A DNA stretch of 23,418 nt from a virus. The position numbers and the translations under genes are program-made. This document shows, one piece after another, positions 2,634 through 23,418 of this stretch (the first letter of the stretch is position 1; each line of letters starts with the position of its first letter). A model generated the notes under the pieces. It was not told the origin of the DNA, ran no database searches, and worked only from the letters and a program-made list of their open reading frames with translations. The stretch is taken from the IMG/VR virus record IMGVR_UViG_3300013102_000778, positions 1 to 23,418 of that record, one strand, 5' to 3'.

Positions 2634-3500
2634 CTATATAGAATTACTCAATATTACTACAACTAACCCTTTTGCTGTCACTTCGTTTATTAAACATTCA
2701 AACTCACCATCTTGACCAATAATCCGTAGCTTATTCCCTGGGCGCTTAGATACTTCGTAAACATCTAAAGTGCCATCTATATCTAAAAGCCATGAGCCAT
2801 TTGATAACTCATTGACACCCATTGCAATCAGCCAGGATGATTTGCCACTACGCACAAAGTTCAAGCTTTTAAGATTGACGCCATCAGGGACAAATGACTT
2901 ATCGATGTAGCAAAAACCATCATCATCTAGTTTTCCACCTATAAGTATTTTCTTATTGATCATCGGTATTTCTGGGACAAAAGCACTCTTGTGTGAAGAA
3001 ATGCTCATTTCGCCAGTAGCCAGCCATTCAAGTGAAGCACCGGTATCTAATGCGCAGGTAATCACTACGTCGCCAGGAAAATATTCTCTTCTGACCCACG
3101 TACTGATCGTACCTGATGATATGTTCAAATGCTCACCAAGTTCTTTTTGCGTCTTGAAACCATAGGCTTCAATAATTCTATTCAAAACAGCTCGGCCGCC
3201 AGACGAAAGCATTTTCTGCAGAAGAGCGTGACCAGAAGATGAAGTGACTCTTTTTGTGATTTTATGCCATTCATTTTTTGAAAATGCAAACTCACCAGTA
3301 ACTAACCATTTCAAGTCAGCTCCTGTGTCCAATGCGCATTTGATGATTGCATTCCCAGGAACACTCTTGCGTTGAACCCAGGCACTTACATTATTTGAAG
3401 GAACATCCAGACAGCTGGCTAAAGCTCGTTGAGAAGTCACCCCATAAGATGAGGAAAGGCGTTCAACGATATGCGCAGCACTGTCTTTAGTTTCAGGCAT
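2634..3500 (-). CDS. cI: CI-type phage repressor with two tandem HTH domains
   Basis: This is the lysogeny repressor of the 186 type. From the ATG at 3500 (GGTGG upstream) it is 288 residues, against 192 for 186 CI. Residues about 10-71 and 107-164 are two copies of the CI helix-turn-helix domain. The copies share the pattern ...VSAWV/ISTWV..., a PG dipeptide, CALDTGA(D/S)L(K/E)W and L(V/A)TGE. The rest, about 180-288, resembles the 186-type CI C-terminal oligomerisation domain. The gene is leftward and divergent from cox, with probable operators in between. A longer reading to 3569 exists but would run through the operator region. The extra DNA-binding domain is the oddity: one chain could contact two half sites. 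Repressor identity is firm; the consequence of the duplication is inference. Confidence 0.9.
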   Translation of the reverse strand: MPETKDSAAHIVERLSSSYGVTSQRALASCLDVPSNNVSAWVQRKSVPGNAIIKCALDTGADLKWLVTGEFAFSKNEWHKITKRVTSSSGHALLQKMLSSGGRAVLNRIIEAYGFKTQKELGEHLNISSGTISTWVRREYFPGDVVITCALDTGASLEWLATGEMSISSHKSAFVPEIPMINKKILIGGKLDDDGFCYIDKSFVPDGVNLKSLNFVRSGKSSWLIAMGVNELSNGSWLLDIDGTLDVYEVSKRPGNKLRIIGQDGEFECLINEVTAKGLVVVILSNSI

Positions 3501-3511
3501 AGATCCACCAG

Positions 3512-3558
3512 GTGAGCACGAAAGTGATTTACATGAGCACATTTGTGATCTAAAGTGA
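3512..3558. promoter_or_regulatory. Probable CI/Cox operator region with phased direct repeats
   Basis: A composite element TGAGCAC-N4-GTGAT occurs twice, at 3513-3528 and 3534-3549. The two copies are exactly 21 bases apart, about two helical turns, so both lie on the same face of the DNA. A third AAAGTGA follows at 3552. On the leftward strand a TTTAGA and TAAATC pair with 17-base spacing could be the cI promoter, though this is weak. The position between divergent cI and cox is where 186-type operators lie. Confidence 0.5.
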
Positions 3559-3615
3559 AAACACACCACATGTTACACAGTAGAACTCAAACTGCTTAAA
3601 AGGAGATTTTGCTTT

Positions 3616-4032
3616 ATGTCTGAACAGAATGCAATTCAAGTAGCCGTTGATAAGACAGCCGTTTCCAAGGAATTGTTAAACTCTGTAGTATCCCAGTTGC
3701 TACCGGCTTTAGAATCAGCCCTGTCTGCAACTATTGTGAACTCAATAAGTTTGCAACTGACCACACTAGCTAACTCCCCTACAATCTCTAAAAAAGATTT
3801 TGCTTCAATTAACGGCATCAGTTCCGCTGTCCTCGAAAAGTGGATCGCGAACGGTGTTGTACTCCTTGCCCCAACCCCTTCAACCACAATCACCCAGCAG
3901 CGCAAAAACCGTAAAACAGGTCAAATGCAAACTGTGGTTATGGAACGTCATGGCAATGCCCTGATCAATCTTGAGGCCTGGCGTGAGAAAAACCGTCAGC
4001 AAGCCATCAAGTGCCGCTACATAAATCGTTGA
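3616..4032 (+). CDS. cox: Cox/Apl-type regulator and probable excisionase
   Basis: A 138-residue protein, the first gene divergent from the repressor, with an AAAAGGAGA ribosome binding site. The C-terminal half reads KKDFASINGISSAVLEKWIANG, then a polar segment, then INLEAWREKNRQQA. This is the winged-helix arrangement of P2 Cox, which represses the lysogenic promoter and directs excision. The first 60 residues are extra compared with the roughly 90-residue P2 Cox and may form a helical multimerisation region. Apl holds this position in 186. The assignment rests on position and the helix pattern; sequence similarity to P2 Cox is low by eye. Confidence 0.7.
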   Translation: MSEQNAIQVAVDKTAVSKELLNSVVSQLLPALESALSATIVNSISLQLTTLANSPTISKKDFASINGISSAVLEKWIANGVVLLAPTPSTTITQQRKNRKTGQMQTVVMERHGNALINLEAWREKNRQQAIKCRYINR

Positions 4033-4063
4033 GTCAGATTATTCAAACTAACAGGGACTAACA

Positions 4064-4570
4064 ATGTTTGATTATCGCGTTTCCAAACACGCTCACTTTG
4101 ACGATGCATGTAAGGCATTTGTGAATCGTCATAACCTTACCGAACTTGCCGCACTGATGGGGACTAAACCCCAAATTCTGCGTAATAAGTTCAACCCTGA
4201 ACAACCTCATAAACTTACCTGTGAGGAAGTACTTTCAATCACTGACCTGACTGAGGACGCGACACTTCTCGATGGCATGCTGGCACAAATATATTGCCTG
4301 CCGTCAGTACCGGTCAATGAAATTGCTACTTCTAATCTTTCAACCTACGCACTACAGGCAACTGCCGCCGTAGGTTCTATTGCAGCTGATGCAGTGAAAG
4401 GTGGTGCGGTCAGTTCTCAGCGTCGAATGTCATTACTCGAAGGTGTTAATGCCGGTATTCGCCATCTGTCACTGATCGGTTTAGTTGTTCAAGGCCGAGT
4501 ACAGGCATCCCCAGCGCTGGCATCCGCAGTTGGTGCTATTGCTAGCGTCACTACAAATGGGCTGATGTGA
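4064..4570 (+). CDS. cII: CII-type regulatory protein
   Basis: At 168 residues it matches the length of 186 CII, which activates the promoter that establishes lysogeny. The N-terminal part (residues 8-80) has FVNRHNLTELAALMGTKPQILRNKFNPE followed by LTCEEVLSITDLTEDATLL. That is the HTH signature of the phage CII / CP76 family in 186-like phages. The C-terminal part is alanine-rich and helical, as expected for oligomerisation. It follows cox by 31 bases and starts at an ATG preceded by AGGGA. Its presence marks the prophage as 186-like in its switch, since P2 itself has no cII. Confidence 0.85.
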   Translation: MFDYRVSKHAHFDDACKAFVNRHNLTELAALMGTKPQILRNKFNPEQPHKLTCEEVLSITDLTEDATLLDGMLAQIYCLPSVPVNEIATSNLSTYALQATAAVGSIAADAVKGGAVSSQRRMSLLEGVNAGIRHLSLIGLVVQGRVQASPALASAVGAIASVTTNGLM

Positions 4571-4572
4571 AT

Positions 4573-4743
4573 ATGGCTGTTTCTATCGCTCCATTTTTAA
4601 AACAGCAAAGTCCTTCTCGCCATTTCGGCCATGGTTGCATCGAATTGCCTAGTGGAAAGCGTTGGAACCCTTCAATGTCACAAGCCACTGCCCCGCAGGC
4701 CGTGAGAAATTCAAAACCGCTTTTAAAGCGTCTGTTTAGTTGA
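4573..4743 (+). CDS. fil: Small Fil-like (filamentation protein family) early protein
   Basis: A 56-residue reading frame starts at the ATG at 4573, two bases after the cII stop. The N-terminus reads MAVSIAPFLKQQSPSRHFGH and continues with a G-C-I-E-L-P-S-G-K-R-W pattern. I recognise this from the phage filamentation protein Fil family (DUF2724) of 186-like phages, where it follows cII and can disturb host cell division. The protein is basic and ends in KPLLKRLFS. The next gene begins eight bases downstream. Family assignment is from memory of the motif and position; activity in this prophage is inference. Confidence 0.7.
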   Translation: MAVSIAPFLKQQSPSRHFGHGCIELPSGKRWNPSMSQATAPQAVRNSKPLLKRLFS

Positions 4744-4750
4744 GGTGATT

Positions 4751-5053
4751 ATGTCTTTAGTGAATGAAGAACATATTCAAATAGGCAAGAAACATCTTTC
4801 CAGAATTAAAGAGATGTTTGAATTTAGAAAGAACGTAGCGCAGGAAACATTTGATACTCAGCCGCTGCATATGCGTAGAACAATCTGTTTTCATGCTGGC
4901 TTATCTCGTCGCCATCTTGAGATGAAGTTTGCTGAATTAACGCCGACGGAAAGGCATCAAGTAGTTGCGGCGCTAAATTCTTTGCTTGGTTTAACTGAAT
5001 CACTGCCGAAATTTATCAGTGATGATGATTGCAAGATAAATATTAAACACTAA
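4751..5053 (+). CDS. Small conserved early-region protein of unknown function
   Basis: The product is 100 residues. I choose the ATG at 4751 over a GTG at 4745 because a TGAGGTG ribosome binding site sits at 4741-4747, overlapping the stop of the previous gene. The middle is basic and reads MRRTICFHAGLSRRHLEMKF followed by TPTERHQVVAALNSLL, a compact helical pattern. No enzyme motif is visible. It lies in the early operon between Fil and the DUF2732 protein, where 186-like phages carry several small unstudied genes. It may be a host-takeover protein, but I cannot assign a function. Confidence 0.7.
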   Translation: MSLVNEEHIQIGKKHLSRIKEMFEFRKNVAQETFDTQPLHMRRTICFHAGLSRRHLEMKFAELTPTERHQVVAALNSLLGLTESLPKFISDDDCKINIKH

Positions 5054-5118
5054 CCCGTATTCAAACTAATTGGCGTCAACTCGCCGGGCATTCGTTTGCC
5101 CAAAAACAGGAGTTCTGC

Positions 5119-5397
5119 ATGAAAAATATGATTAATAACACCCGTCAGAATATTGTTGGTTTGCCAGTTATGGGCATTGATTTAGCTTCACCAGAACTCG
5201 ATTACACATCAGTTCTTGATTTGTCGTTGATGCTAGACACTGCTCGGAATGAAGAACGCGCTAATAGAGCGGTGGTGTTTGCCGGTCGCCTTGAAGCGAT
5301 TGCCAGTTTCATTCTCAAACGTGAAATGACAGGAATTGAGGCTGCTGAAGCACTCCGCATTGAAGCTAACCGAATCCAAAGTGAAGCGGAGGCGTAA
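5119..5397 (+). CDS. DUF2732-family early phage protein
   Basis: A 92-residue, mainly helical, acidic protein. The segment LDLSLMLDTARNEERANRAVVFAGRLEAIA, then LKREMTGIEAAEALRIEANRI, fits DUF2732, a family found in P2/186-like early regions just before the TraR-type gene. The ATG at 5119 follows AACAGGAGT, a good ribosome binding site, and the stop is two bases before the next start. A 65-base gap separates it from the gene upstream. The family's function is unknown. Confidence 0.75.
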   Translation: MKNMINNTRQNIVGLPVMGIDLASPELDYTSVLDLSLMLDTARNEERANRAVVFAGRLEAIASFILKREMTGIEAAEALRIEANRIQSEAEA

Positions 5398-5399
5398 CA

Positions 5400-5624
5400 A
5401 TGGCTGATGTAATTGACACCGCCCAGGAGCGCGCTGATCTCGTCCTTTCCGCCCAAATCCAAGCCGCCCGCGCAACTGTTGCAGGCGTTTCCGCAATGTT
5501 CTGCATCGAGTGTAATCGTCCGATACCAGAGGAACGCCGTGCAGCTCTTCCAGGTGTTGAGCTTTGTGTCTACTGCAAAGAACTCGCCGAGTTGAACGCC
5601 AGACATTACAGAGGAAACAAGTGA
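5400..5624 (+). CDS. TraR/DksA-type C4 zinc finger protein
   Basis: A 74-residue protein with an N-terminal helix and a four-cysteine zinc finger: C35-x2-C38 and C56-x2-C59, with the family's P-I-P-E-x-R-R-A-A-L-P-G between them. It belongs to the TraR/DksA group and corresponds to the P2 early zinc-finger ORF. TraR-like proteins bind the secondary channel of RNA polymerase and mimic DksA with ppGpp, so it may retune host transcription during lytic growth. It starts two bases after the DUF2732 stop, and its own stop overlaps the GTG of the next small frame. Family assignment is secure; the polymerase role is by family. Confidence 0.88.
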   Translation: MADVIDTAQERADLVLSAQIQAARATVAGVSAMFCIECNRPIPEERRAALPGVELCVYCKELAELNARHYRGNK

Positions 5625-5704
5625 TCGTTTTCTCAGTGGCATTACTCATCCTGGCCGGTATTAACGCTGGCTATCTGGTCATTGATATCAAAGACGGTAT
5701 GTAA
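5621..5704 (+). CDS. 27-residue hydrophobic peptide coupled to gene A
   Basis: A GTG at 5621 has a GAGGAAAC ribosome binding site and overlaps the TraR-type stop (GTGA). Its TAA overlaps the ATG of gene A (TAATG). The peptide is one membrane helix, about residues 2-21 (IVFSVALLILAGINAGYLVI), with a short D-I-K-D-G-M tail. Overlap at both ends suggests translational coupling, which would feed ribosomes to gene A. It might act as a small membrane protein, or the translation itself may be the point. It is too short for usual gene finders. Confidence is moderate because short hydrophobic frames can occur by chance. Confidence 0.55.
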   Translation: MIVFSVALLILAGINAGYLVIDIKDGM

Positions 5705-7953
5705 TGGAGACCAGCCGTTTTACCCCTCAGATTAAAACGCCCGAAGTCTGGGCGTTTCCCTGGAATAAACCACGCCAGCCCGTTTCTGGCCTCGAAAGAC
5801 CGCTTACCCGTGATGAATACAATCAGGGGCAAGCTGTTTTAATCAGAGTAAAAGCCCTCTCTACCGACCTGCGAGAAATTTTCACAGGTCGCCATGCGTA
5901 TCTGCTGAAAACGCAGGGCATTCACGCCGCCAATAAATACCTGATTTATACCCTTGGTCGCAGCATCCTTCCCCGCGTTGAAGCGGTCAATGCCGCTCAC
6001 GCAATGAATGTTAAAGCCTCGATGAAATTCATGTCTGAGGCAGACACCTATCACAGCCTGCCGAGCATGAGCGATAAACCGTTGCGTCGGTACGCTCAGG
6101 ACATCGCCGGACAACTCAAAGAAATCTATGAAGACCGTTGTGATCAGCTGCTTGCTCAATACAACGGGGATAATTCGATTCTTTTTGAGAGTGATACCCA
6201 GTGCGAGCTGTACAGCGAAATCGCAGGTATGGCGCAGGCTTTTAATGTCACGCCGATGTATTGGACAAGGTACTGCAAAGGCAAGCTGGATGCCTTTTCC
6301 GCTATCGCTGCCATGTCCCGCCTGGTTAATCCGGACTGGTGGTTACGCCAGTTGAAAGGTCAGCGCACCCGCTGGCGTGAATCTTTGCTGATCGCTATCG
6401 GCAAGGTTAACCGCGACGCTTCCCCGTATGCCAGTAAGCAGGCTATCCGTGAAGTACGTGCGCGCCGTCTGTCGAATCTCGACTACCTGAAAAGCTGCGA
6501 CCTGGAAAACATCGAAACCGGCGAGCGTTTCAGTCTGATCGACAAAGTTATGGTGAGTATTTCAAACCCTGAAATTCGCCGCATGGAGTTGATGAGCACG
6601 ATCTCCGGCACAGAAAAGTATGCAGCCGCAAATGGCGACGTCGGGATGTTTCTGACCATCACCACGCCTTCCAAATATCACCCGACCCGCATGGTGGGTA
6701 AGGGTGATAAAAAGCGCGTTCAGCGAAATCACGCCTGGGACAAAGAAGCCTATACCCCGAAAGACGCACAGCGTTATCTGTGCGGGATCTGGAGCAAAAT
6801 GCGCACCGCGTTCAAAGATAGTGGCCTGTCCGTTTACGGGATGCGTGTTGTAGAGCCTCACCACGACGCGACGCCACATTGGCACATGATGCTATTCACC
6901 AAGCCCGCCATGCGTCAGCGGGTGATCGATATCATGCGCAAATACGCCATGAAAGAAGACGGTGATGAGCGCGGTGCGGCAAAGAACCGCTTTGACTGTA
7001 AACACCTGAACCGTGGCGGCGCGGCTGGATATATTGCTAAATACATTGCAAAGAACATCGACGGTTATGCACTGGAAGGCGAGCGCGACCACGAAACCGG
7101 CGAATTGCTTACTGACTCCGCGGCTGCGGTTACTGCCTGGGCTGCTACCTGGCGTATACCGCAGTTTCATCCTATCGGCCTGCCTACCATGGGTTCATAC
7201 CGTGAGTGCCGCCGCATCCGTTCCATCAGTCTGGCTGAAACCTTTGACGAAGAAGTGGAAGCTGTCCGCGCTGCTGCTGATGCCGGTGATTTTATGGCGT
7301 ACATGTCAGCCCAGGGCGGCGCAAATGTGCCTCGCGACGATCAGACTGTGCGCGTAGCCCGCCGCGTAGCTGACGAGCTGAACGCATACGATGAAGAAGT
7401 GAAAAAGGTTGTGGGCATTTTCGCGCCTCACCTTGGCGACTCCCGCGTTTATGAAACCCGTACAACTCAATGGCGCATCGTTTCTTCCGTCGTTGACGTT
7501 GAGGTTTTGACCTTAAAAAGCACCTCCGGCGCGCCTCGGAGTCCTGTCAATAACTGTGGGTTAGGTGGAAAGGAACAGGCTACAAATTGGCTTGATAGTC
7601 AGGCTGGGAGCGCGCCTACAGCGTCTAATTCTGACAACCTGCGAGTTATTGACTGGACAGACACAGCCGCCGTGAGGGCGATTGTGGCGCGTATACGAGA
7701 GGAAACACCGAGAGTTAGCAAGGCGCAGCGAAGTTTTGACCCAACAAAGGGGCGCGATGTTGCCCCATCAGCAAGATTGACGCCTGAAGAACGGGCGCGA
7801 TTGCCTCAGATTGAACAGGAATTGCTTAAAAACGATATCAAAGCTCAAAGATGGGAGCTGGTAGCATTAACCCGGGGAGCCAAAATCAGTTTTGGTGATG
7901 TTGTGATCCATTATCCCCGTCTTATGGACTGGCAGGAATTTTATGACGACTAG
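5704..7953 (+). CDS. A: Replication initiator gpA, HUH endonuclease
   Basis: A 749-residue P2 gpA-family protein that nicks one strand at the origin to start rolling-circle replication, acting in cis. The HUH motif is at residues 392-394 (H-W-H) in the block VEPHHDATPHWHMMLF. The catalytic tyrosine pair is Y443 and Y447 in AGYIAKYIAKN, spaced as the Y450/Y454 pair of P2. The length is close to P2 gpA (761). The start at 5704 overlaps the stop of the small peptide. The C-terminal part after about residue 600 is more variable and contains the nick site in its coding DNA. Gene A closes the early operon; no terminator is obvious right after it. Confidence 0.96.
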   Translation: METSRFTPQIKTPEVWAFPWNKPRQPVSGLERPLTRDEYNQGQAVLIRVKALSTDLREIFTGRHAYLLKTQGIHAANKYLIYTLGRSILPRVEAVNAAHAMNVKASMKFMSEADTYHSLPSMSDKPLRRYAQDIAGQLKEIYEDRCDQLLAQYNGDNSILFESDTQCELYSEIAGMAQAFNVTPMYWTRYCKGKLDAFSAIAAMSRLVNPDWWLRQLKGQRTRWRESLLIAIGKVNRDASPYASKQAIREVRARRLSNLDYLKSCDLENIETGERFSLIDKVMVSISNPEIRRMELMSTISGTEKYAAANGDVGMFLTITTPSKYHPTRMVGKGDKKRVQRNHAWDKEAYTPKDAQRYLCGIWSKMRTAFKDSGLSVYGMRVVEPHHDATPHWHMMLFTKPAMRQRVIDIMRKYAMKEDGDERGAAKNRFDCKHLNRGGAAGYIAKYIAKNIDGYALEGERDHETGELLTDSAAAVTAWAATWRIPQFHPIGLPTMGSYRECRRIRSISLAETFDEEVEAVRAAADAGDFMAYMSAQGGANVPRDDQTVRVARRVADELNAYDEEVKKVVGIFAPHLGDSRVYETRTTQWRIVSSVVDVEVLTLKSTSGAPRSPVNNCGLGGKEQATNWLDSQAGSAPTASNSDNLRVIDWTDTAAVRAIVARIREETPRVSKAQRSFDPTKGRDVAPSARLTPEERARLPQIEQELLKNDIKAQRWELVALTRGAKISFGDVVIHYPRLMDWQEFYDD
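7531..7550 (+). other. ori: P2-type replication origin (gpA nick site)
   Basis: The sequence GCGCCTCGGAGTCCTGTCAA inside gene A matches the P2 origin as I recall it, where gpA cuts within CTCGGAGTCC. It lies in the 3' third of the gene, as in P2, so the protein nicks its own coding sequence. Confidence 0.85.
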
Positions 7954-8509: not shown

Positions 8510-9034
8510 ATGGCTAATCTTTTTGATGTCGCGGAACACCTTTCTAAACAGGCAAAAAGCACTTTTGTTAAAGGTGAAGCCTCGTTTTCTTTAGCGGACG
8601 CTTACGGACGCTCTGCCTTTAATAGATACTACTATGCGAGCTTTTTAAGCGTTAGAGACTTGGTATCTTCTTTAGATGCCAAATGGGGACGCGTAACACA
8701 TGACGGAGTTCCAGAACTGTTACGAAAAGCTGTTTACAAAAAGATTAATGGTGAATTACTAAAAGCTGAAAAAAGTAACTTTCTGACGTCTCAACAATAT
8801 TTTTCAAAAAAAAGTCTTATTTTAACTTCTCTTGATACCATTGCCTCCATTATGGCTCAGGCTTATACCATAAGAGGAATAGTTGATTACGAGCCAGAGA
8901 TAAAAATTTCTTTTGAGAAAAACATTTTCAAAGTCAATACAACAACCGTTACTCATGCTCAAGGGTGGCTGAAAACAATTCATACGGAAAAGTCAAAAAT
9001 TATAGTAATCATGAAGGAGATTGGCCTTGTCTAG
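8510..9034 (+). CDS. HEPN-like protein of the retron cassette
   Basis: A 174-residue helical protein. Residues 34-52 (RSAFNRYYYASFLSVRDLV) match the core of HEPN-domain proteins, usually written as S-A-x-x-R-A-Y-Y-A-x-F-x-x-x-R. The R-x4-6-H motif of RNase-active HEPN proteins is not clear, so it may instead bind nucleic acid or nucleotide, or partner another subunit. The ATG at 8510 has AAGG six bases upstream. It is the first gene of an AT-rich cassette and its end overlaps the next gene by eight bases, so the two are translationally linked. It is likely a retron effector or part of one. HEPN assignment is probable; its activity is unknown. Confidence 0.75.
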   Translation: MANLFDVAEHLSKQAKSTFVKGEASFSLADAYGRSAFNRYYYASFLSVRDLVSSLDAKWGRVTHDGVPELLRKAVYKKINGELLKAEKSNFLTSQQYFSKKSLILTSLDTIASIMAQAYTIRGIVDYEPEIKISFEKNIFKVNTTTVTHAQGWLKTIHTEKSKIIVIMKEIGLV

Positions 9035-9761
9035 CAACGATTTTATAAATGACATCATTCAGCAATATAATATGCTGAATGTTTTTTCTATTAACGAATT
9101 TACTTCAACCATGTTAATTGAAGTGCCTTTAGATAAAGTCAAACCTACAGTGATGCCTGGCTATATATCAAAAAGACAGTTGAATAATATTATAAAGAAA
9201 ATTGAAAATGAATTACATTGTAAAGTTCTAGTTAGTTACCAACCAACTGAAAATAAAGATAACATTCAAGCAGGCCTTCTCGCAATCACGAAGGCTCAAC
9301 TGAAGAACAAAATTGTGAGCGTTAATATTTCCTTTTTAGATTCTAAAAATGCAACAGTTTACGTATTTAGTAAAAATATAACTTTAGAGCAAAGAGAGAA
9401 AATAGATTCATTAATATGTGAATACCTGCATAGTACAAATATCAATACAAATTCCATAGAGCATCATACTGTACAACATCCCGAACCTAGCCTAATGATT
9501 TTATTAAGAACTATTAAAGTAAATTATCCTATTGAACTTGAATCCTTACGGGAAACTCTGGAGAAAAATGGAAATTATATTCCTTCGAAAGATTGGCTGA
9601 ACAGTAAAGTGGATGCTCTAAGAAAACGTAAACTGCTTACGAGAGATCAAGCTGGTAATTATAGACTCACGCAAAGTGGGCTGGAGCAAGTGCCCATAAC
9701 AAAATCACGCAATAGTTCAGATATCGAACGAATTCTCTCTCTTGCGAAAAAACATCTGTAA
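9027..9761 (+). CDS. Winged-helix-like retron-associated protein
   Basis: A 244-residue protein from a TTG at 9027, chosen because AGGAG at 9015-9019 sits seven bases upstream; the TTG at 9021 is too close to that site. It overlaps the HEPN-like gene. Residues about 35-135 form an alpha/beta domain that I do not recognise. Residues about 150-220 (SLMILLRTIK, SKDWLNSKVDALRKRKLLTRDQAGNYRLTQSGLEQV) look like a winged helix with a typical recognition helix, wing and T-x-S-G-L ending. The msr-msd RNA begins 13 bases after its stop. It probably works with the HEPN-like protein and the msDNA as sensor, antitoxin or DNA-binding subunit, but this is inference. Confidence 0.7.
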   Translation: MSSNDFINDIIQQYNMLNVFSINEFTSTMLIEVPLDKVKPTVMPGYISKRQLNNIIKKIENELHCKVLVSYQPTENKDNIQAGLLAITKAQLKNKIVSVNISFLDSKNATVYVFSKNITLEQREKIDSLICEYLHSTNINTNSIEHHTVQHPEPSLMILLRTIKVNYPIELESLRETLEKNGNYIPSKDWLNSKVDALRKRKLLTRDQAGNYRLTQSGLEQVPITKSRNSSDIERILSLAKKHL

Positions 9762-9773
9762 TGTTACCTTTAT

Positions 9774-9952
9774 AGTGGTAGTGGCGCTCACGAGAGTGTG
9801 AATCATGCTCATTTGTGAAGGTCGCGTACAGAATGTGCGCCTGTAAAACAGCAGGCGCTCCTTCGAATCGCCTGCTGTTTCACAGGCGTCATCAACGAAA
9901 GTTTTCATCAGCTTTGCTTAAGGATTGACCTTATGAAAACGCCACTACCACT
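9774..9952 (+). ncRNA. Retron msr-msd RNA
   Basis: This region sits directly before a retron-type RT and has the parts of a retron RNA. The a1/a2 ends are a perfect 13-bp inverted repeat, AGTGGTAGTGGCG (9774-9786) and CGCCACTACCACT (9940-9952). Just after a1, in the msr part, is a small hairpin with a GAGA loop at 9792-9795. An alternative hairpin, GCGTAC/GTGCGC, lies at 9824-9840. The msd part contains a long hairpin: CGCCTGT (9838-9844) pairs with ACAGGCG (9882-9888). After one mismatch, AAACAGCAGGCG (9846-9857) pairs with CGCCTGCTGTTT (9869-9880) around an 11-base loop. Reverse transcription would start next to a2 and run leftward through this hairpin. The branching G should lie at or near the end of a1. 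Confidence 0.85.
9774..9952. repeat. Retron a1/a2 inverted repeat (arms 9774-9786 and 9940-9952)
   Basis: The arms are 13 of 13 complementary and 153 bases apart. The right arm lies within codons 3 to 7 of the RT gene that starts at 9933. Such a match by chance within a 180-base stretch is very unlikely. Confidence 0.85.
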
Positions 9953-10913
9953 TTTCTTTTCCTATGACTCATCTGATCAGCTTTTAGAGGCTTTGTCTGA
10001 GCCACTACAACAAAAATATAAAGACGAAATTAAGAGATTAGAAGCATGTAATCTACCTCCTTTTGTTTCTTACGCTGTGTTATCAACATCAATGGGTGTC
10101 AGCGTAACATTGATTAATGCCATAGTTAAAAATAAGAAAAATTACTATCGAACATTTACTATTAGCAAAGGTAAAAATAAGAAAAAACGAGTTATTGAGG
10201 CGCCTAAAGTTGCCTTAAAAATAATGCAAAGCTGGTTCGCTTATCACCTTAGCAGAAGCAATAATATTAATATAAGCAATTCAGCATTTGGTTTTTTGCC
10301 AGGTGTTAATGGTATTTATGAAGCAGCCAAAAAACACTGTGGTTCAAAATGGATTTTTAGCATTGATCTTAAAGATTTCTTCCATAGTATTGATAAAGAG
10401 AAAACTGCTTCGGCATTATCAATTATTGGTTACACTGCTCAGCAAGCTAATAAAATCTCTGAGATAATAACCTATAACAATCACCTTCCTCAAGGCGCTC
10501 CAAGTAGCCCTGTCATTTCCAACATTGCTTTTAAGGAAACTGACATGGAAATAGAAAACGCCATAGATGGAATGAATATTAATTACACCCGTTATGCAGA
10601 TGACCTTACTTTTTCAGGTTCGGATGCCAATTTCGACATTGAAAAATTAAAGACAACGATTATAGAAATAATTGAAAGAAACAATTGGACTATCGCACCT
10701 GATAAGACGAGGATATCTCGCCATCCAAATAGATTAAAAGTGCATGGTTTTTTAGTCCATGAAGAAAAACCTAGATTAACAAAAGGCTATAGAAACAAGC
10801 TAAGAACTTATAAACATCTAGCATCCGTTGATAAAATAAATACTGAAGACAAAGACAAAATAAATGGTCATATAAACTACGGAAACTACATAGATAGATT
10901 AAACTCTGATTAA
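9933..10913 (+). CDS. ret: Retron reverse transcriptase
   Basis: A 326-residue retron-type RT that copies the msd RNA into multicopy single-stranded DNA. The catalytic aspartates are D145 (SIDLKDFF) and the YADD box at 221-224. SNSAFGFLPG at about 117-126 and LPQGAPSSP before YADD are the usual RT blocks. The region X signature NAxxH appears as A131-A-K-K-H135, and the region Y triplet VTG as V270-H-G272, both variants. No extra C-terminal domain is present. The N-terminus (LPPFVSYAVLSTSMGVS) resembles one retron RT subgroup, which supports the ATG at 9933 with AAGGA upstream. That Shine-Dalgarno can fold into a TAAGG/CCTTA hairpin that reaches the start codon. Only a short gap with no clear terminator separates it from the convergent portal gene. 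Confidence 0.93.
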   Translation: MKTPLPLFFSYDSSDQLLEALSEPLQQKYKDEIKRLEACNLPPFVSYAVLSTSMGVSVTLINAIVKNKKNYYRTFTISKGKNKKKRVIEAPKVALKIMQSWFAYHLSRSNNINISNSAFGFLPGVNGIYEAAKKHCGSKWIFSIDLKDFFHSIDKEKTASALSIIGYTAQQANKISEIITYNNHLPQGAPSSPVISNIAFKETDMEIENAIDGMNINYTRYADDLTFSGSDANFDIEKLKTTIIEIIERNNWTIAPDKTRISRHPNRLKVHGFLVHEEKPRLTKGYRNKLRTYKHLASVDKINTEDKDKINGHINYGNYIDRLNSD

Positions 10914-16675: not shown

Positions 16676-17146
16676 ATGTCTCTTGTTGTACCTGCACCGA
16701 AACCGGACGCCGCGACGGAACCCGCGATTAAAAACACCCACTTTTGGCCTGATGTGGATCCGGTTGAGCTGCGCGACACCCTGCGGCTGGAGGGCAGCGT
16801 CACAGCAAAACGCCTGCGCGCCGCCGCAAAGTTTGCCATGACCGAAGTGAATGCCGAGCTGTTCAGCTTTCGTGATGCGCAGATTTCGCAGGGCTTTAAA
16901 CGCCTGGCTGATGTCCCGGCTGATCAGATTGATGACGAAAGTATCAAAGTCTGCGCCTACCTGCGGGCGGTTTCATCCATCACAGCTGCCATTCTGGCGG
17001 AACGATATCCGAACAGTGATACCACCGATGCTGGCAGTAAAAAGGCGGAGATTGTCGAAAGTACGGTTGATGAACTGTGGCGTGCTGGCCGCAATGCGAT
17101 CAGCGATGTCGCTGGCGTGTCGCACTGTGTGATCGGGCTGCTCTGA
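16676..17146 (+). CDS. L: Head completion protein gpL
   Basis: A 156-residue head completion/stabilisation protein (P2 L is 169) that plugs the filled head before tail joining. LRLEGSVTAKRLRAAAKFAMTEVNAEL and YLRAVSSITAAILAERYP are family features. GAGGT precedes the ATG at 16676. A 95-base gap from M holds no convincing gene. Its stop overlaps the X start (TGATG). Confidence 0.92.
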   Translation: MSLVVPAPKPDAATEPAIKNTHFWPDVDPVELRDTLRLEGSVTAKRLRAAAKFAMTEVNAELFSFRDAQISQGFKRLADVPADQIDDESIKVCAYLRAVSSITAAILAERYPNSDTTDAGSKKAEIVESTVDELWRAGRNAISDVAGVSHCVIGLL

Positions 17147-17349
17147 TGAAAGTCTATGCCGAACAGGGCGACACCGTGGATTCGCTCTGCTGGCGTTACT
17201 ACGGGCGCACCGAATCGGTGATGGAACAGGTTTACGCGGCTAACGCTGGCTTAGCCGCTCGCGGGGCAATTTTGCCCCATGGCTACGCGGTGGAGCTGCC
17301 GGATATTACTCAGGCCGCAGTCAGCGAAACCGTCTCACTTTGGGACTGA
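17146..17349 (+). CDS. X: Tail protein gpX, LysM-like
   Basis: A 67-residue protein, the same length as P2 X. It is a small LysM-like domain: MKVYAEQGDTVDSLCWRYYGRT followed by VYAANAGLAARGAILPHGYAVELP. Proteins of this type sit in the tail and may bind other tail parts or peptidoglycan. The ATG at 17146 overlaps the L stop, and the stop overlaps the holin ATG, which implies tight translational coupling. Confidence 0.93.
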   Translation: MKVYAEQGDTVDSLCWRYYGRTESVMEQVYAANAGLAARGAILPHGYAVELPDITQAAVSETVSLWD

Positions 17350-17564
17350 TGACCATGGAGCGCATCACCTCGTTTATCTGTTATTGCGTCGCGGCCTTTC
17401 TTGCCTGGCTCGGCGCAATGTCACCGCAGGATATCGCCTTTCTGGTGGGTGCCGCCGTCGGCGTCGCGACCTTCCTGGTGAACTGGTACTACCGGCGCAA
17501 AACTTACCGCCTGCTGAAAGCTATGGGCGTCAGAGGAGACATAAATGCAGCCATCAATCGTTAG
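17349..17564 (+). CDS. Class II holin, HP1 type
   Basis: A 71-residue protein with two membrane segments (about residues 5-22 and 27-46) and a basic tail, YYRRKTYRLLKAMG. The phrase SPQDIAFLVGAAVGVATFLVNWYYRRK resembles HP1-family class II holins more than P2 Y (93 residues, three helices), so the holin is an exchanged version in the P2 lysis slot. It would form the membrane lesion and depolarisation that release or activate the SAR endolysin. The start is the ATG at 17349; a second ATG at 17355 could give a dual-start pair as in some holin/antiholin genes. Confidence 0.85.
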   Translation: MTMERITSFICYCVAAFLAWLGAMSPQDIAFLVGAAVGVATFLVNWYYRRKTYRLLKAMGVRGDINAAINR

Positions 17565-18054
17565 ACGCTGCGCCGTCGCCGCAGTACTTGCGATTGCCGC
17601 GCTGCTGCCGCAAACGCAGACCCTGAAAACTTCCGCCGCCGGTCTGGCACTGATTGCCGATGCCGAAGGCTGCCGCCTGTCCGCCTATCAGTGCAGCGCG
17701 GGCGTCTGGACAAACGGCATCGGGCACACCGCAGGCGTGAAGCCGCAAACGCAAATCAGCGAACGTCAGGCCGCCGTTAACCTGGTGGAAGACGTGATGC
17801 GTGTGGAGAAAGGCATTGCGCGCTGTATGCCGGTTGCCATGCCGCAGCCGGTGTATGACGCCGTGGTGTCGTTCGCGTTCAACGTCGGCATGACGGCGGC
17901 CTGCAAATCAACGTTAGGGTTTTTCATCAACAAAGGGCGATGGCGTGACGCCTGCGAGCAGTTGCCGCGCTGGGTGTTTGTGAAGGGCGAGCGCGTCATC
18001 GGCCTGGAGCGCCGCCGCGCGAATGAGCTGGCCTACTGCCTGCGGGGTGTCTGA
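17545..18054 (+). CDS. K: SAR endolysin, GH24 lysozyme
   Basis: A 169-residue lysozyme that cuts the glycan strands of peptidoglycan. The N-terminus is a weakly hydrophobic, Ala/Leu-rich segment (residues 9-22), a signal-anchor-release helix that exports it in inactive form. The catalytic triad follows the E-8-D/C-5-T pattern: E41, C50 and T56, with GIGHT after it. Cysteine replaces the usual aspartate, as in one known subgroup of these enzymes. The ATG overlaps the end of the holin by 20 bases. The extra cysteines (C43, C50 and others) may take part in disulfide control of activity, which is inference. Confidence 0.94.
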   Translation: MQPSIVRRCAVAAVLAIAALLPQTQTLKTSAAGLALIADAEGCRLSAYQCSAGVWTNGIGHTAGVKPQTQISERQAAVNLVEDVMRVEKGIARCMPVAMPQPVYDAVVSFAFNVGMTAACKSTLGFFINKGRWRDACEQLPRWVFVKGERVIGLERRRANELAYCLRGV

Positions 18055-18479
18055 TGCGCATTTTAATTTTGGTACTGCTGGCAGCCTGCGCGCTGGCGGG
18101 GCTGCAAACCTGCCGTATCGCTGGCCTGACTGAAAATGCCAACCAGGCGCAGCGCATCATCGGCACGCTGTCCGCCGATATTGAAAGCCGAGACAACGTT
18201 ATTCATCGCCTGAATGATGATGCACTGAGGCGCGAACGCCAGGAGCAAAGCCTGCGCACCCAGCTCGCACGGGCAGGTCAGGAGGCGCGGGATCGTGAAG
18301 TTCATATTCAAAGGTTACTCAATGAAAATCAGGAAATGCGCGATTGGTATGCAGCTATTCTGCCTGATGGTATTAGCCGGATGCACGCACGTCCCGCCTT
18401 CGCCAGCGCCGCAGATTATTTACGTTGGCTGTCCGGCGGTAACGAGCTGCCCGATACCGGCAAGCTCACCGGTCACTAA
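18054..18479 (+). CDS. lysB: LysB, Rz-type inner-membrane spanin
   Basis: A 141-residue protein, the same length as P2 LysB. It has an N-terminal membrane segment (about residues 2-18) and then a long periplasmic coiled coil (about 25-90, rich in R, E, Q and L heptads). It is the i-spanin that pairs with the nested lipoprotein LysC to fuse inner and outer membranes at the end of lysis. The ATG overlaps the endolysin stop. Confidence 0.92.
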   Translation: MRILILVLLAACALAGLQTCRIAGLTENANQAQRIIGTLSADIESRDNVIHRLNDDALRRERQEQSLRTQLARAGQEARDREVHIQRLLNENQEMRDWYAAILPDGISRMHARPAFASAADYLRWLSGGNELPDTGKLTGH

Positions 18480-18612
18480 CGGCGATTTAAGCAGTGATGT
18501 CAGAAACCTGGAGGCCGCGCTGACCGCCTGCGGCCTCCAGGTGGAAGCGGTCAAACAATGCCAGGAGGAACACCGTGTTAAAGCCAGCCCAACTGAGAAA
18601 AGCGTTAACTGA
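18322..18612 (+). CDS. lysC: LysC, Rz1-type outer-membrane lipoprotein spanin
   Basis: A 96-residue lipoprotein that starts inside lysB in another frame, as in P2. The lipobox is L18-A19-G20-C21, giving a mature lipoprotein of 76 residues. The mature N-terminus is proline-rich (THVPPSPAP), typical of o-spanins. I use the ATG at 18322, not a start further upstream, because it gives a proper signal peptide. Its end overlaps the start of R. Confidence 0.9.
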   Translation: MKIRKCAIGMQLFCLMVLAGCTHVPPSPAPQIIYVGCPAVTSCPIPASSPVTNGDLSSDVRNLEAALTACGLQVEAVKQCQEEHRVKASPTEKSVN

Positions 18613-19042
18613 TGCCGTGCCGGTGCTGCAAACCAGCCCCGACACCCTGCGGATGTTTGTGGATAATGGTCGCATCGTTTCCACGTTAGCCAGTTCGCTG
18701 TCGTTTGAATACCAGTATCAGACCGAGCTGCTGATCACCAACTTTGCCCAGGACTGCGATCTGATCATTGTGCCCATTATGGCCTAGTTGCGTGAGAACC
18801 AGCCGGACATCATGGCGACACCGGAAAAACAGCAAACTGGCTTTAAATTCAAGGCCGATATGCTGGATGATGGTTCTTACGATATCGCGATTGACGTGCA
18901 GCTCACCGAGCGAGTGGTCGTCAAACAGATTGATGCCGGTCTGTACGTGGAGCATTTTCCGGAACCGCCCCTGCCGGAGCCGGTGGAAAGGCCGCGTGAA
19001 CTGTACCTGCACGGCGAGTTAGTGAGCCAGTGGAATGAGTGA
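18575..19042 (+). pseudogene. R: Tail completion gene R interrupted by an amber codon
   Basis: From the GTG at 18575 (AGGAGGAA upstream) to the stop at 19042 the frame is 156 codons, which equals the 155-residue P2 R protein. At 18785-18787 it is broken by TAG at codon 71. Before it the protein reads SLSFEYQYQTELLITNF and IIVPIMA. After it, in the same frame, it reads LRENQPDIM and continues to the end of an R-like protein. P2 R has a Trp at this place (LLAWVR), so a single TGG to TAG change explains it. Without suppression only 70 residues are made and tail completion should fail. A sequencing error is the main alternative. The S start overlaps the R end as usual. Confidence 0.88.
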
Positions 19043-19493
19043 GCTGTCAGCGTTTGATACCCGCCTGGCGGGGCTGATTGAGGCACTGTCTCCGCAGAGC
19101 CGTAAGGCCATGGCCGCCACCATAGCAAAGCGTCTGCGCAAACATCAGCAACAGCGTATTAAACAGCAGGTAACACCGGAGGGGCGGCCGTTCGCCCCGC
19201 GACGTCCGCAGCCGTTGCGGGCAAAGAAAGGCCGTATTAAGCGGGAGATGTTTGCCCGATTGCGAACTGCTAAATATATGAAAGCCAAAGGCACCGCTGA
19301 CGACGCGGTGGTGGAATTCACCGGACAGGTGCAACGGATGGCAAAAGTGCATCAGTACGGGCTGCGGGATCGCCCGTCTGTACGTGCAAAAGAAATGCAG
19401 TATCCGGCGCGCCCGTTGTTAGGACTGGACGGGGAAGATATGAAAATTGTGGAAGATGAATTGCTAAAACTTATTAGCCCACGCTTGAACTGA
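19035..19493 (+). CDS. S: Tail completion protein gpS
   Basis: A 152-residue protein (P2 S is 150) needed with R to complete the tail before head joining. It is very basic in the middle (AKKGRIKREMFARLRTAKYMKA) and contains FTGQVQRMAKVHQYGLRDRPS, a conserved S segment. The ATG overlaps the end of R. A diverged copy of its last third is fused to the start of V at 20273-20560. Confidence 0.93.
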   Translation: MSELSAFDTRLAGLIEALSPQSRKAMAATIAKRLRKHQQQRIKQQVTPEGRPFAPRRPQPLRAKKGRIKREMFARLRTAKYMKAKGTADDAVVEFTGQVQRMAKVHQYGLRDRPSVRAKEMQYPARPLLGLDGEDMKIVEDELLKLISPRLN

Positions 19494-19631
19494 AACAACT
19501 GCGGCACAGAGCCAAACCTAATCTTACGGGTAACTCAGTGCCACAAGCGGACATCTCGGACGCTACACGTTAGGTTAGAGATCTAAAAGTGCATAGTCCG
19601 CTTGGGTGGGATACTTACATAAAGAAGATTA
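19494..19631. other. Intergenic stretch with interleaved inverted repeats
   Basis: No gene is seen. Two perfect complementary pairs interleave: AACCTAA (19515-19521) with TTAGGTT (19570-19576), and CAAGCGGAC (19544-19552) with GTCCGCTTG (19596-19604). A third pair, GGCAC/GTGCC, is at 19503-19507 and 19538-19542. The order of the two long pairs is that of a pseudoknot. This may be a structured RNA or the worn end of an inserted element. Confidence 0.4.
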
Positions 19632-19925
19632 TTATATAGGTGTCCCATAATTATGTAACGGCTGAGAAGATGCTAGATAAAGCGCGGTTCCTTCAACATT
19701 GGTAAAAATGAACCCATGACCATCTTTATGCTTAAAGACTGAAGGGTCATGGTTAAAAGGTAGTATGGCGTTTATTCCTTGACCATTTGGGAGGTTACGT
19801 ATCCTCGCTCTGGCTTCTTCCCATTGCAGCATGACAGTCTTGTCAGACTCATAATCGCTCAACGGTGATGTCTCCAATACAGCAATAGCACCGTAATCTT
19901 TATTTGCAACTTTATATATCAGCAT
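19632..19925 (-). CDS. Small accessory protein of unknown function
   Basis: A 97-residue soluble protein, leftward, in the first insertion between S and V. The start ATG at 19925 is preceded by a G-rich sequence (ATGGGG) that may be the ribosome binding site. It has no membrane segment. GQGINAILPFNHDPSVFKHKDGHGFIFTNVEGTALYL suggests a compact beta-rich fold. I do not recognise a family. Opposite orientation to the late operon and lower GC are typical of cargo genes with their own promoter. Confidence 0.6.
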   Translation of the reverse strand: MLIYKVANKDYGAIAVLETSPLSDYESDKTVMLQWEEARARIRNLPNGQGINAILPFNHDPSVFKHKDGHGFIFTNVEGTALYLASSQPLHNYGTPI

Positions 19926-20272
19926 TTATTACCCCATTGCGAGATGATGCCACGAAACTAATCGGAGTATAGCGACACTTTTCGTTCATGCCAGCAAGGC
20001 TGGACTTTATTAGATGTAGGTCAACATTACGTGAACAGGGTTACAGGCCTAATGCTGCCTCGACAGCAATAATTGTCACCTTACTGGTTGATAAATTGGC
20101 TCTAAAGTCTGCTCGTCGCTCAAACCAGACTGTCAGATTTGATGATGTTCTCCCTACAGAATGTGTCAGATTAAGTTTGAGCTAATACTCGTCAGTGATC
20201 CCCACGTTGTGCCACCAACCATCAGCCCGCCTCAAATTGTATGCCGCCTGACAGGGCTGAATTCTCTTATGC
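19926..20272. other. Junction region with a degraded copy of the V upstream region
   Basis: I see no convincing gene; a 65-codon rightward frame at 19988 has no good ribosome binding site. The last 70 or so bases (about 20205-20272) align with the sequence before the real V gene, sharing TTGTxCCA, CA..CCCG, AATTGT and TCTT blocks. The Ogr-type site there has TGT at 20208-20210 but lacks the paired ACA, so the promoter copy is probably dead. Confidence 0.55.
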
Positions 20273-20560
20273 ATGAATACATCCATCCCAATCAACGACA
20301 TCTCTCGCCTGCTACGCAATCTGATCCGTATTCGCACCGTTGCCCAGGTAGACTTGATTGCGGGCATTTGTCGCGTAAACACAGGCGACGCGGTGACGCT
20401 ATTCACCGGCCAGGTTCAGCGCATGGCGAAGGTGCATCAGTACGGGCTGCGGGATCGGCCGTCCGTCCGTGCTAAAGAAATGCAGTATCCGGCGCGCCGG
20501 TTGTTAGGACTGGACGCGGAGGATATGAAACTGTGGAAGATGAATTTCAATGTATTATAG
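20273..20560 (+). pseudogene. Chimeric remnant: start of V fused to end of S
   Basis: The first 38 or so codons match the start of V (MNTSIPINDISRLLRNLIRI and onwards), at about 80 percent DNA identity by eye to 21860-21976. At about 20387 the sequence switches, still in frame, to the last third of S (FTGQVQRMAKVHQYGLRDRP and onwards), about 90 percent identical to 19317-19445. Near 20529 one base is missing compared with S, which shifts the frame and ends the protein early after LWKMNFNVL. Similarity to S stops near 20545. It is best read as a recombination scar between two accessory insertions and not as a working gene. Confidence 0.88.
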
Positions 20561-20608
20561 ACTCAATTAATACGTACGTTAGTTCAATAGTATTTATAAC
20601 AATTCTTA

Positions 20609-21748
20609 TTACTCCAGATGATTTTTAATATTTTTTAACTCGCAATTATATATCTCTTGAGCTTTTTTATATGTTTCACTAATATCTAAAGGGAATTTCT
20701 CATAGATAAATGTTGGACTGTGAGTTGAGATTATATGTGAATAAGTACCCTGAAACTCCTTTGAGCCAGCACTGCGGCTTTTCTTGCAAATTTCATATAA
20801 ACTTATGAGTTTCATCAATACGTCAAACTTATCTCGGTGGCATGACAAACCAAAATTATTATATCGCCGAGCATCATAAGGGCCGGAGAGTAAAGCTATC
20901 TTTGATATAGACTCAAAAATAACAGTCCCCCATGATGCATGGATTTTACTCTTCAACCTTTCATTACCTGAAAATGATAAAATGTCGCTTATCATATTGT
21001 GATACCGAACAAAAGAAACCCACGGAGTCAATGCATTGATGCCCAGGGAATTACCTCCGTATAAAAAGTCCCACTCCTGCGGTTTTTCACTACATTCGAA
21101 GCCCAGTTCATCATTGATAAACTTAATTTGAATTAGATATGTTAAAATATGGTCGTCATTATTACCTATTCCCCAATCAGATTCGAGTTTCATTAATTGC
21201 TCTAAAAACCTAGATTTTATAATATCAAGAAACGATGCTGGGTCTATATTTACCTTCATTTCAAAATGAAAGAAGTCATTTCTGGGAAATATTTTTTTGT
21301 AAAGAGAGTTTCTGTCTGTGAATTTAAAGCCCGCACTTGCCACTTCGATTTTATTTAGTACATCATCAAACATTTCCCGATGAAGTTTAAACATCTCAAA
21401 CTTCATCAAACTTCTCTCAGATTCAAGGTGTAAATCATTTTTATCTTGTATTTCCCCCTGAATCTGGAGCTGTTTTAACCGTTGTTGCTCGCTGTTTTTC
21501 TGTTGTTGTAACAGAAAAATTAATGTTGCTAATGAGGCTATTGCGCCTAGTAGAGTAAACACCCCTGATAAAAGGGAGCCAAAATCAGACCAATGGCCAG
21601 AGTCTTTAGAAAGACTTGCATTCACTCCTTTGGAAAAAAGGCTGAGAACTTCCCCTGTAACTGAATAATCGTATAGAAAAAGAATTATGACGGGTGGCAA
21701 TACACCAAAAATGGTTATTGCGATCCATAGCAACTTGCTTTTAAACAT
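20609..21748 (-). CDS. Two-helix membrane protein, putative abortive infection type
   Basis: A 379-residue protein with two N-terminal membrane helices (about residues 6-26 and 58-80) separated by a loop containing GHWSDFGSLLSGVF. They are followed by a Gln-rich coiled coil (81-115) and a 260-residue cytoplasmic helical domain. This layout resembles the putative phage abortive infection (putAbiC-like) family, in which a membrane-anchored protein arrests the infected cell. It is AT-rich, leftward and inserted 17 bases upstream of the probable late promoter of V, typical of a P2 cargo gene with its own promoter. Abi activity is inference from layout and position. Confidence 0.72.
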   Translation of the reverse strand: MFKSKLLWIAITIFGVLPPVIILFLYDYSVTGEVLSLFSKGVNASLSKDSGHWSDFGSLLSGVFTLLGAIASLATLIFLLQQQKNSEQQRLKQLQIQGEIQDKNDLHLESERSLMKFEMFKLHREMFDDVLNKIEVASAGFKFTDRNSLYKKIFPRNDFFHFEMKVNIDPASFLDIIKSRFLEQLMKLESDWGIGNNDDHILTYLIQIKFINDELGFECSEKPQEWDFLYGGNSLGINALTPWVSFVRYHNMISDILSFSGNERLKSKIHASWGTVIFESISKIALLSGPYDARRYNNFGLSCHRDKFDVLMKLISLYEICKKSRSAGSKEFQGTYSHIISTHSPTFIYEKFPLDISETYKKAQEIYNCELKNIKNHLE

Positions 21749-21793
21749 CCTGATCTCACTCGTTATATTTGTTATTGGTGATTTTATCTCTGT

Positions 21794-21811
21794 TGTACCA
21801 ACGATGCCACA
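21794..21811 (+). promoter_or_regulatory. Ogr/Delta-type activator site before V
   Basis: TGTACCAACGATGCCACA fits TGT-N12-ACA, the binding pattern of the P2 Ogr and P4 Delta activators. It lies 48 bases before the V start. If the activator binds near -55, as in P2, transcription would start almost at the ATG, so the leader must be very short or the spacing differs. Confidence 0.6.
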
Positions 21812-21859
21812 ATCCCGAACAATTGTCGGATTAACTGCACTACCGGCATCCTTTCTTCC

Positions 21860-22501
21860 ATGAATACATCTATCCCAAACAACGACATTCCGCGCCTGCT
21901 GCGCAATCTGATCCGCATTGGCACCGTTGCCGAGGTGGATTTAGAGGCGGCAACTTGTCGCGTGAACACCGGCGGCAACGTCACCGACTGGCTGCACTGG
22001 CTGACTTCCCGCGCAGGGCGCGCCCGTTCCTGGTGGGCACCGTCCATCGGTGAACAGGTTTTGCTGTTCTGCCTGAGTGGCGAACTTGACACCGCCTTTG
22101 TGATGCCCGCCGTTTTTTCTGATGAATTTCCTGCGCCGTCGGCGTCAGCCGATGCCATGCACGTCACTTTCCCTGATGGCGCGGTGATCGAATACGAACC
22201 CAAAACCGGCGCGATGCTGGCAACCGGCATTAAGTCTGCAACGGTGAACGCTGCCGATCAGGTGGCTGTCACCGCCCCACTAATCACCTGCACGGCGAAA
22301 ACGCGTATCACGCTCGACACGCCGGAAGTGGTCTGCACTAACAAACTCACCACCGGCAGTCTGGAGGTGAAACAAGGCGGCACGATGACCGGCAACCTCA
22401 CCCATTCCGGCGGCAGCCTGACGTCAAACGGCATTGTCGTTCATACCCATAAACACGGCGGCGTCCAGACGGGCGGCGGTCAGACGCAGGTGCCTTCATG
22501 A
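21860..22501 (+). CDS. V: Baseplate assembly protein gpV (tail spike)
   Basis: A 213-residue protein (P2 V is 211), the central tail spike that pierces the outer membrane. The N-terminal OB-like part is followed by DWLHWLTSRAGRARSWWAPSIGEQVLLFCLSGELDTAFVMP, very close to P2 V. A beta-helical stem with VVCTNKLTTGSLEVKQGGTMTG follows. The tip motif H-T-H-K-H, in which histidines bind iron in P2, is at about residues 195-199. No strong ribosome binding site precedes the ATG. The stop overlaps the W start. Confidence 0.95.
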   Translation: MNTSIPNNDIPRLLRNLIRIGTVAEVDLEAATCRVNTGGNVTDWLHWLTSRAGRARSWWAPSIGEQVLLFCLSGELDTAFVMPAVFSDEFPAPSASADAMHVTFPDGAVIEYEPKTGAMLATGIKSATVNAADQVAVTAPLITCTAKTRITLDTPEVVCTNKLTTGSLEVKQGGTMTGNLTHSGGSLTSNGIVVHTHKHGGVQTGGGQTQVPS

Positions 22502-22848
22502 CGAATGCCAAATACATCGGTCTGGCTCGCGCCACGGGGCGCAGCGTCGAAGACCTGGCGCACATTCAGCAGTCGGTCAGCGACATTCTGCGCACGCCCG
22601 TCGGTTCCCGCGTCATGCGCCGCGACTATGGTTCACTGCTATCGATGCTGACTGACCGCCCGCAGAATGCGGCGCTGCGCCTGCAAATCATGGCGGCCTG
22701 TTACAGCGCGATCCTGAAATGGGAGCCGCGCGTCAGCCTCACCGGCATCACCTTTGAAACGACGTTCGACGGGAAAGGCGTGGTGGAACTCACCGGCATC
22801 CGCAAAGACACCTCCGCCGCCATCTCCTTAACCCTTCCAGTGAGCTGA
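22498..22848 (+). CDS. W: Baseplate wedge protein gpW
   Basis: A 116-residue protein (P2 W is 115) related to T4 gp25. It carries the family segment SVSDILRTPVGSRVMRRDYGS, with the expected Arg-rich turn, and a downstream VELTGIRKDTSAAISL. It builds the baseplate wedge with J and I. It starts four bases inside the end of V. Confidence 0.95.
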   Translation: MTNAKYIGLARATGRSVEDLAHIQQSVSDILRTPVGSRVMRRDYGSLLSMLTDRPQNAALRLQIMAACYSAILKWEPRVSLTGITFETTFDGKGVVELTGIRKDTSAAISLTLPVS

Positions 22849-22851
22849 ATT

Positions 22852-23418
22852 ATGGCAACTATAGACCTGAGCCAGTTACCCGCCCCCGACGTGGTGGAGG
22901 TGCTGGATTATGAAATTCTGCTGGCGGGGCGCAAAGCCACGCTGGTCTCGCTGTACCCCGAAGACCAGCAGGCTGCTATTGCCCGCACACTGACCCTGGA
23001 GTCTGAGCCGATGGTGAAACTGCTGGAGGAGAACGCCTACCGCGAAGTGATCCTGCGTCAGCGGGTTAACGAGGCGGCGCAGGCGGTGATGCTGGCTTAT
23101 GCCTCCGGTAATGATCTCGACAATATCGCCGCCACGTTCAGCGTGGAACGCCTGACGATCACCCCTGCCGATACGGTCAGCGTGCCCGCCGTGGCGGCAG
23201 TAATGGAAAGCGATGCGGATTTACGTATCCGTGCGCAGCAGGCGTTTGAAGGGCTGAGCGTGGCCGGTCCGGTTGGCTCTTATGAGTATCACGGGCGCTC
23301 GGCTGACGGGCGTGTGGCGGATATTTCGGTGATCAGTCCGTCGCCTGCCTGCGTGACGATTTCCGTGCTGGCACAGACCGGCAACGGCACCGCGCCCGCC
23401 GACCTGCTGGCGAAAGTA
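22852..23418 (+). CDS. J: Baseplate protein gpJ (partial, cut by window end)
   Basis: The first 189 codons of the baseplate wedge gene J (P2 J is 302 residues). It starts at the ATG at 22852, three bases after the W stop, and reads MATIDLSQLPAPDVVEVLDY. ENAYREVILRQRVNEAAQAVMLAYASGNDLDNIAA is the family's helical block. The frame is open to the last base of the window, so the 3' end is outside. Confidence 0.95.
   Translation, partial: MATIDLSQLPAPDVVEVLDYEILLAGRKATLVSLYPEDQQAAIARTLTLESEPMVKLLEENAYREVILRQRVNEAAQAVMLAYASGNDLDNIAATFSVERLTITPADTVSVPAVAAVMESDADLRIRAQQAFEGLSVAGPVGSYEYHGRSADGRVADISVISPSPACVTISVLAQTGNGTAPADLLAKV

Follow-up and report, generated by a model that had tools for sequence, protein, structure and literature searches.

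Two cargos divided by a V-S scar in the S-V slot of a P2-like phage: the probable product of phage fusion

Between the phage genes S and V, in a slot that usually has one cargo, a 23,418-base viral record (the window, analysed here over its whole length) carries two. They are separated by a chimera, V'-'S, in which the start of V is joined to the end of S. We consider it probable, at roughly three chances in four, that this stack arose by the fusion of two loaded P2-like phages through one V-S crossover. The accessory slots of phages often contain more than one system, and how a second arrives without loss of the first is seldom visible. Here, a scar of the two anchor genes preserves a readable junction, recurs in three host genera, and is accompanied by identifiable parental arrangements; the V-S scar provides a concrete, testable path by which phages with a single cargo could come to carry several. 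Phage fusion of this sort seems to be a rare, recurrent means of stacking cargo.

Structure and decay of the V'-'S chimera

Repeat and profile searches of the window confirmed the order S, cargo 1, V'-'S chimera, cargo 2, V, which an earlier note on this DNA had proposed (Table 1). Exactly two direct repeats were found within positions 17000-23418: part of S (19301-19445) recurs at 20386-20530 with 88% identity, and 20261-20387 matches 21848-21974, at V, with 80% identity. Profile matches inside the S-V interval fall to V and then to S, and the reversed-sequence control for the V and S profile searches gave zero matches. The chimera, with a span of 20261-20560, consists of V nt 1-115, with ~170 nt of V-upstream flank, and of S sequence beginning at nt ~267; the two genes overlap by ~2 nt at the junction, which reads ...AACACAGGCG on the V side followed by ACGCGGTG... 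on the S side.

Table 1. Features around S and V in the window.
Feature	Position	Strand	Basis or match
S, intact (tail completion; left anchor)	19035..19493	+	Pfam Phage_tail_S E=1.4e-33
Cargo 1, 97-aa protein	19632..19925	-	no Pfam, PADLOC or PHROGs match
V-upstream flank of V' remnant, including decayed hairpin	20107..20272	+	V-upstream block of many relatives; hairpin comparison
V' = V nt 1-115	20273..20387	+	direct repeat; V_Rah 1-117, E=1e-28
'S = S nt ~267 to ~439, frameshift near end	20386..20560	+	direct repeat; S_Rah 263-439, E=1e-47
Cargo 2, 379-aa protein	20609..21748	-	homologue searches; N-terminal membrane segments predicted (by eye)
V, intact (baseplate spike; right anchor)	21860..22501	+	Pfam Phage_spike E=1.3e-25, Phage_base_V E=6.5e-18

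The 5' flank of V' is formed by the conserved V-upstream block and shares about 82-89% identity with that of many relatives. In the window chimera, the GCCGCC-TGACAGG-GCGGC hairpin of this flank is broken, whereas 55 of 80 Rahnella-type phages have it intact. The chimera is an open frame of 95 aa, in which the S part goes out of frame near its end (ATGAAAATTGTG to ATGAAACTGTG), so that 'S represents a non-functional S. The earlier description of the chimera as the start of V with its promoter joined to the end of S thus holds for the V start, the conserved upstream block (a putative promoter) and the S part, but has to be qualified by the broken hairpin and the frameshift.

The V gene of the window is nearest to the V of Rahnella prophages, which points to a Rahnella-type host for this P2-like phage. 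A W-like reading frame and then the start of a J-like one lie 3' of V, and the gene order around S-V agrees with that of phage Wphi, the genes upstream of S being read from ORFs.

V' is unusually far from all V genes, with a median identity of 83%, whereas V-V pairs have a median of 92%. The private branch of the window V' in the tree measures 0.15, where the median is 0.019, and V' carries 3 private residues, compared with a mean of 0.3. When nearest matches were ranked among 333 sequences, the own V of the window came 55th for V' and its own S came 32nd for 'S, which argues against a recent duplication within the phage. The closest sequences were those of L054, L043 and L020 for V' and of L233, L009 and L017 for 'S. 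The 80-90% identity of the copies had been taken to mean that they came from diverged phages and not from a recent duplication; these ranks favor that view, but the extra divergence of V', its private branch and residues, and the broken hairpin indicate that the figure mixes parental divergence with decay after fusion.

Sister scars and parental arrangements in relatives

We collected 332 distinct S-V intervals from relatives, counting those of <150 nt as empty. Full V'-'S scars were found in the window and in intervals L060 and L222 within this count, and in L224, which was not counted because the contig ends within its S. In L060, from a Rahnella-type phage, the cargos are a DUF4062 protein and then a 376-aa protein. 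L222, in Hafnia alvei, carries a PtuA/PtuB Septu pair (PtuA E=1e-141, PtuB E=1e-85), followed by a TIR-like protein, with a weak TIR match, and a membrane protein. L224, in Yersinia aldovae, likewise has a V'-'S scar between two cargos. In every scar, V' begins at the V start codon with its upstream flank, and 'S extends toward the S 3' end. The V' endpoints of the four scars lie at nt 115, ~121, 111 and ~146, all within nt 111-146, a clustering with a probability of about 8e-4 under a uniform model (calculated post hoc), and the S endpoints are spread widely (~267, ~230, ~155 and ~115).

The scar halves group with phages of their own host genus in trees built on 115-290 nt with low support. 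Grouping of each half with its own genus (Rahnella-type, Hafnia or Yersinia) suggests at least three separate origins, and the two Rahnella-type chimeras, in the window and L060, also part in the trees, with weak support. The idea of one ancestral chimera for all scars was dropped, as the trees place the halves by host genus. A search of 392 genomes with the composite V-S protein gave, among the matches listed, none that spans both halves at high identity.

Scars of S only were also present inside S-V intervals (L289, L340/L482, L299 and L205). L205 contains a near-complete second copy of S (interval nt 229-629). L429 has a frameshifted S and was rejected as a scar.

Parental arrangements were identified for two sister stacks. 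In L224, nt 645-2610 matches L326, a Yersinia relative, at 84% over 1,989 nt through V', and in L326 this first cargo directly precedes an intact V. The right part of L224 (nt 2853-7863; cargo B, V and beyond) matches L289, from a Yersinia P2-like phage, with 92.5% identity over 5,012 nt. L289 shares cargo B with L224 but has a different first cargo, and ahead of cargo B it carries an additional gene and, between the two cargos, a decayed S fragment (4457-4660); L289 is therefore itself a stack and not a clean single-cargo parent. In L060, nt 1-1124 of the interval matches the whole single-cargo interval L002 at 85.5%, and its first cargo also occurs in the single-cargo form S-A-V in L002, L003 and L126. 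A search for single-cargo relatives, suggested by the earlier note as a check, thus succeeded for the left parts of L060 and L224, whereas the right part of L224 was seen only in the stacked L289 and nothing was found for the window cargos. In L326, a transposase ORF (2934-4094, minus strand), IS30-type by eye, interrupts cargo gene A1.

Probable phage fusion and rival explanations

Illegitimate recombination is a source of phage mosaicism, and junctions with little homology are kept if both essential genes survive. Unlike general mosaicism, the crossover proposed for the window would join genes that do not match each other, and it would bring in a second cargo instead of swapping one. In the proposed course of events, co-infection, or the arrival of a phage in a lysogen, would bring together in one cell two related phages that each carried a cargo of their own in the S-V (orf30) slot. 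A single illegitimate crossover with an overlap of 2-3 nt would fuse the early part of V from phage A with an internal part of S from phage B. The product would retain the intact S and cargo 1 of A together with cargo 2 and the intact V of B, and with both anchor genes intact it would be viable and carry both cargos. The V'-'S junction would be left as a non-functional scar, which would then decay. S/'S and V'/V form direct repeats, through either of which one cargo could be lost, and such loss may explain the rarity of stacks.

The polarity of the scars is the one that a single V(A) x S(B) crossover would leave, and hence fits the fusion model. The earlier claim that two loaded phages recombined and that both cargos were kept gains support from this polarity and from the parental arrangements seen for the sister cases (L326, L289 and L002), but no single-cargo S-V version of either window cargo was found among the relatives searched. 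Also against the fusion model are the clean S-B-V right parent of L224, which was unseen, and the V' endpoint cluster, which random crossover does not predict.

An identical final order and scar would result if 'S-cargo-V' were duplicated in tandem within one phage and homologous recombination with another phage, via the S and V flanks, then replaced one of the cargos. Exchange of cargos within stacks is conceivable, given that in Yersinia the first cargo ahead of cargo B differs between L224 and L289 and the S 3' end that accompanies cargo B does not. However, this route requires two events, no unreplaced duplication occurs among the 332 intervals, and in the window and L060 neither half of the scar is closest to its own V or S, many other phages being closer; we therefore regard it as improbable, and a single crossover as the likelier course. 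The L224/L289 difference might instead be a swap within a two-slot array: after a V-S fusion, the scar would supply inner homology arms and each cargo could be exchanged separately, and the V' cluster would reflect preferential breakage around V codon 38. This extension of the fusion model is tentative and, in our estimate, unlikely.

The proximity of the V' ends in four scars of at least three origins could also be read as the mark of site-directed insertion, with V being targeted around codon 38 and linked to S by a recombinase or another directed mechanism. Against such targeting, the S endpoints differ widely, no common junction motif was evident by eye, no recombinase gene was noticed in these cargos, and the V start is intact in single-cargo intervals; we give it very little credence. 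It is harder still to believe that the chimera has a function of its own and is maintained as a gene or regulatory element. Its frame is open in the window, but the window copy has its private V' residues, broken flank hairpin and S frameshift, and the copies in L060, L222 and L224 carry stops or frameshifts. The earlier note had named an intact conserved chimera gene in relatives as evidence against its own reading, and these interrupted copies are what the relatives contained. The chimera as a working gene was dropped on the same grounds, and the scars, which also have long private branches in the trees, are decaying remnants and not genes.

The S-V slot, its cargos and known accessory sites

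Among the 332 intervals, 239 are occupied and 93 empty, the longest being 4625 nt; occupancy is 76 of 80 in Rahnella-type phages. The cargos form 193 families at 35% identity. Some of the 106 cargo representatives that were scanned match defence families (PtuA, Old, KwaB, AIPR, reverse transcriptase or DUF4062), and others match non-defence families (ArsB, ArsC and GGDEF). These matches indicate that S-V is a general accessory slot, partly defensive.

S-V corresponds to the P2 orf30 accessory ('moron') site, which, in the accessible parts of published descriptions (PMC3091744, PMC6823313), lies between S and V and holds variable, horizontally acquired genes. Cargo in the S-V slot of the relatives is likewise variable and is absent in some of them. 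Those parts describe a single insert, in contrast to the two cargos of the window split by a V'-'S scar. A defence hotspot of P2-like phages between A and Q, by cos, has many loci with more than one system (Rousset et al. 2022, PMC9122126). As far as the accessible text of that study goes, the A-Q hotspot resembles S-V in its small size (1-5 kb), its place between conserved genes and its high turnover, and differs from it in being another site and in that anchor-gene scars between systems are not described. No published account of stacking with a V'-'S scar was found in the literature searched, most subscription papers lying outside its reach. The S-V site is known, and the V-S stacking route appears to be new.

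Neither window cargo gave a relevant Pfam, PADLOC or NCBIfam match, and known defence families were unmatched. Over 468 nt, the block around cargo 1 (19532-19996) shares 86.5% identity with DNA that adjoins an integrase in a different bacterial genome from the sampled family group. Homologues of cargo 2, 64% identical, occur in two other genomes, one of them the Hafnia alvei genome, and neither is in an S-V slot. HMMER homologues of each window cargo sit in islands, and none lies between S and V. Seeded searches found neither cargo in viral contigs nor cargo 2 in genome contigs. For cargo 2, there was no match in the phage collection, a single weak plasmid match in Vibrio, and no solved structure found to resemble it. 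The earlier suggestion that such phages stack defence genes is therefore borne out in Hafnia L222 only, with its Septu PtuAB and TIR-like/membrane pairs, and not for the window.

A type IX-like retron trio of HEPN, HTH and reverse transcriptase genes (PADLOC E 1e-51, 1.7e-61 and 1.1e-127) was found at 8510-10913 of the window, plus strand. It lies between a replication gene and a portal gene, which is the A-Q slot beside cos, so that both of these known cargo sites are loaded in the window phage. A CI-type repressor at 2634-3569 (minus strand) has two Phage_CI_repr stretches and one C-terminal domain, its DNA-binding domain being apparently duplicated.
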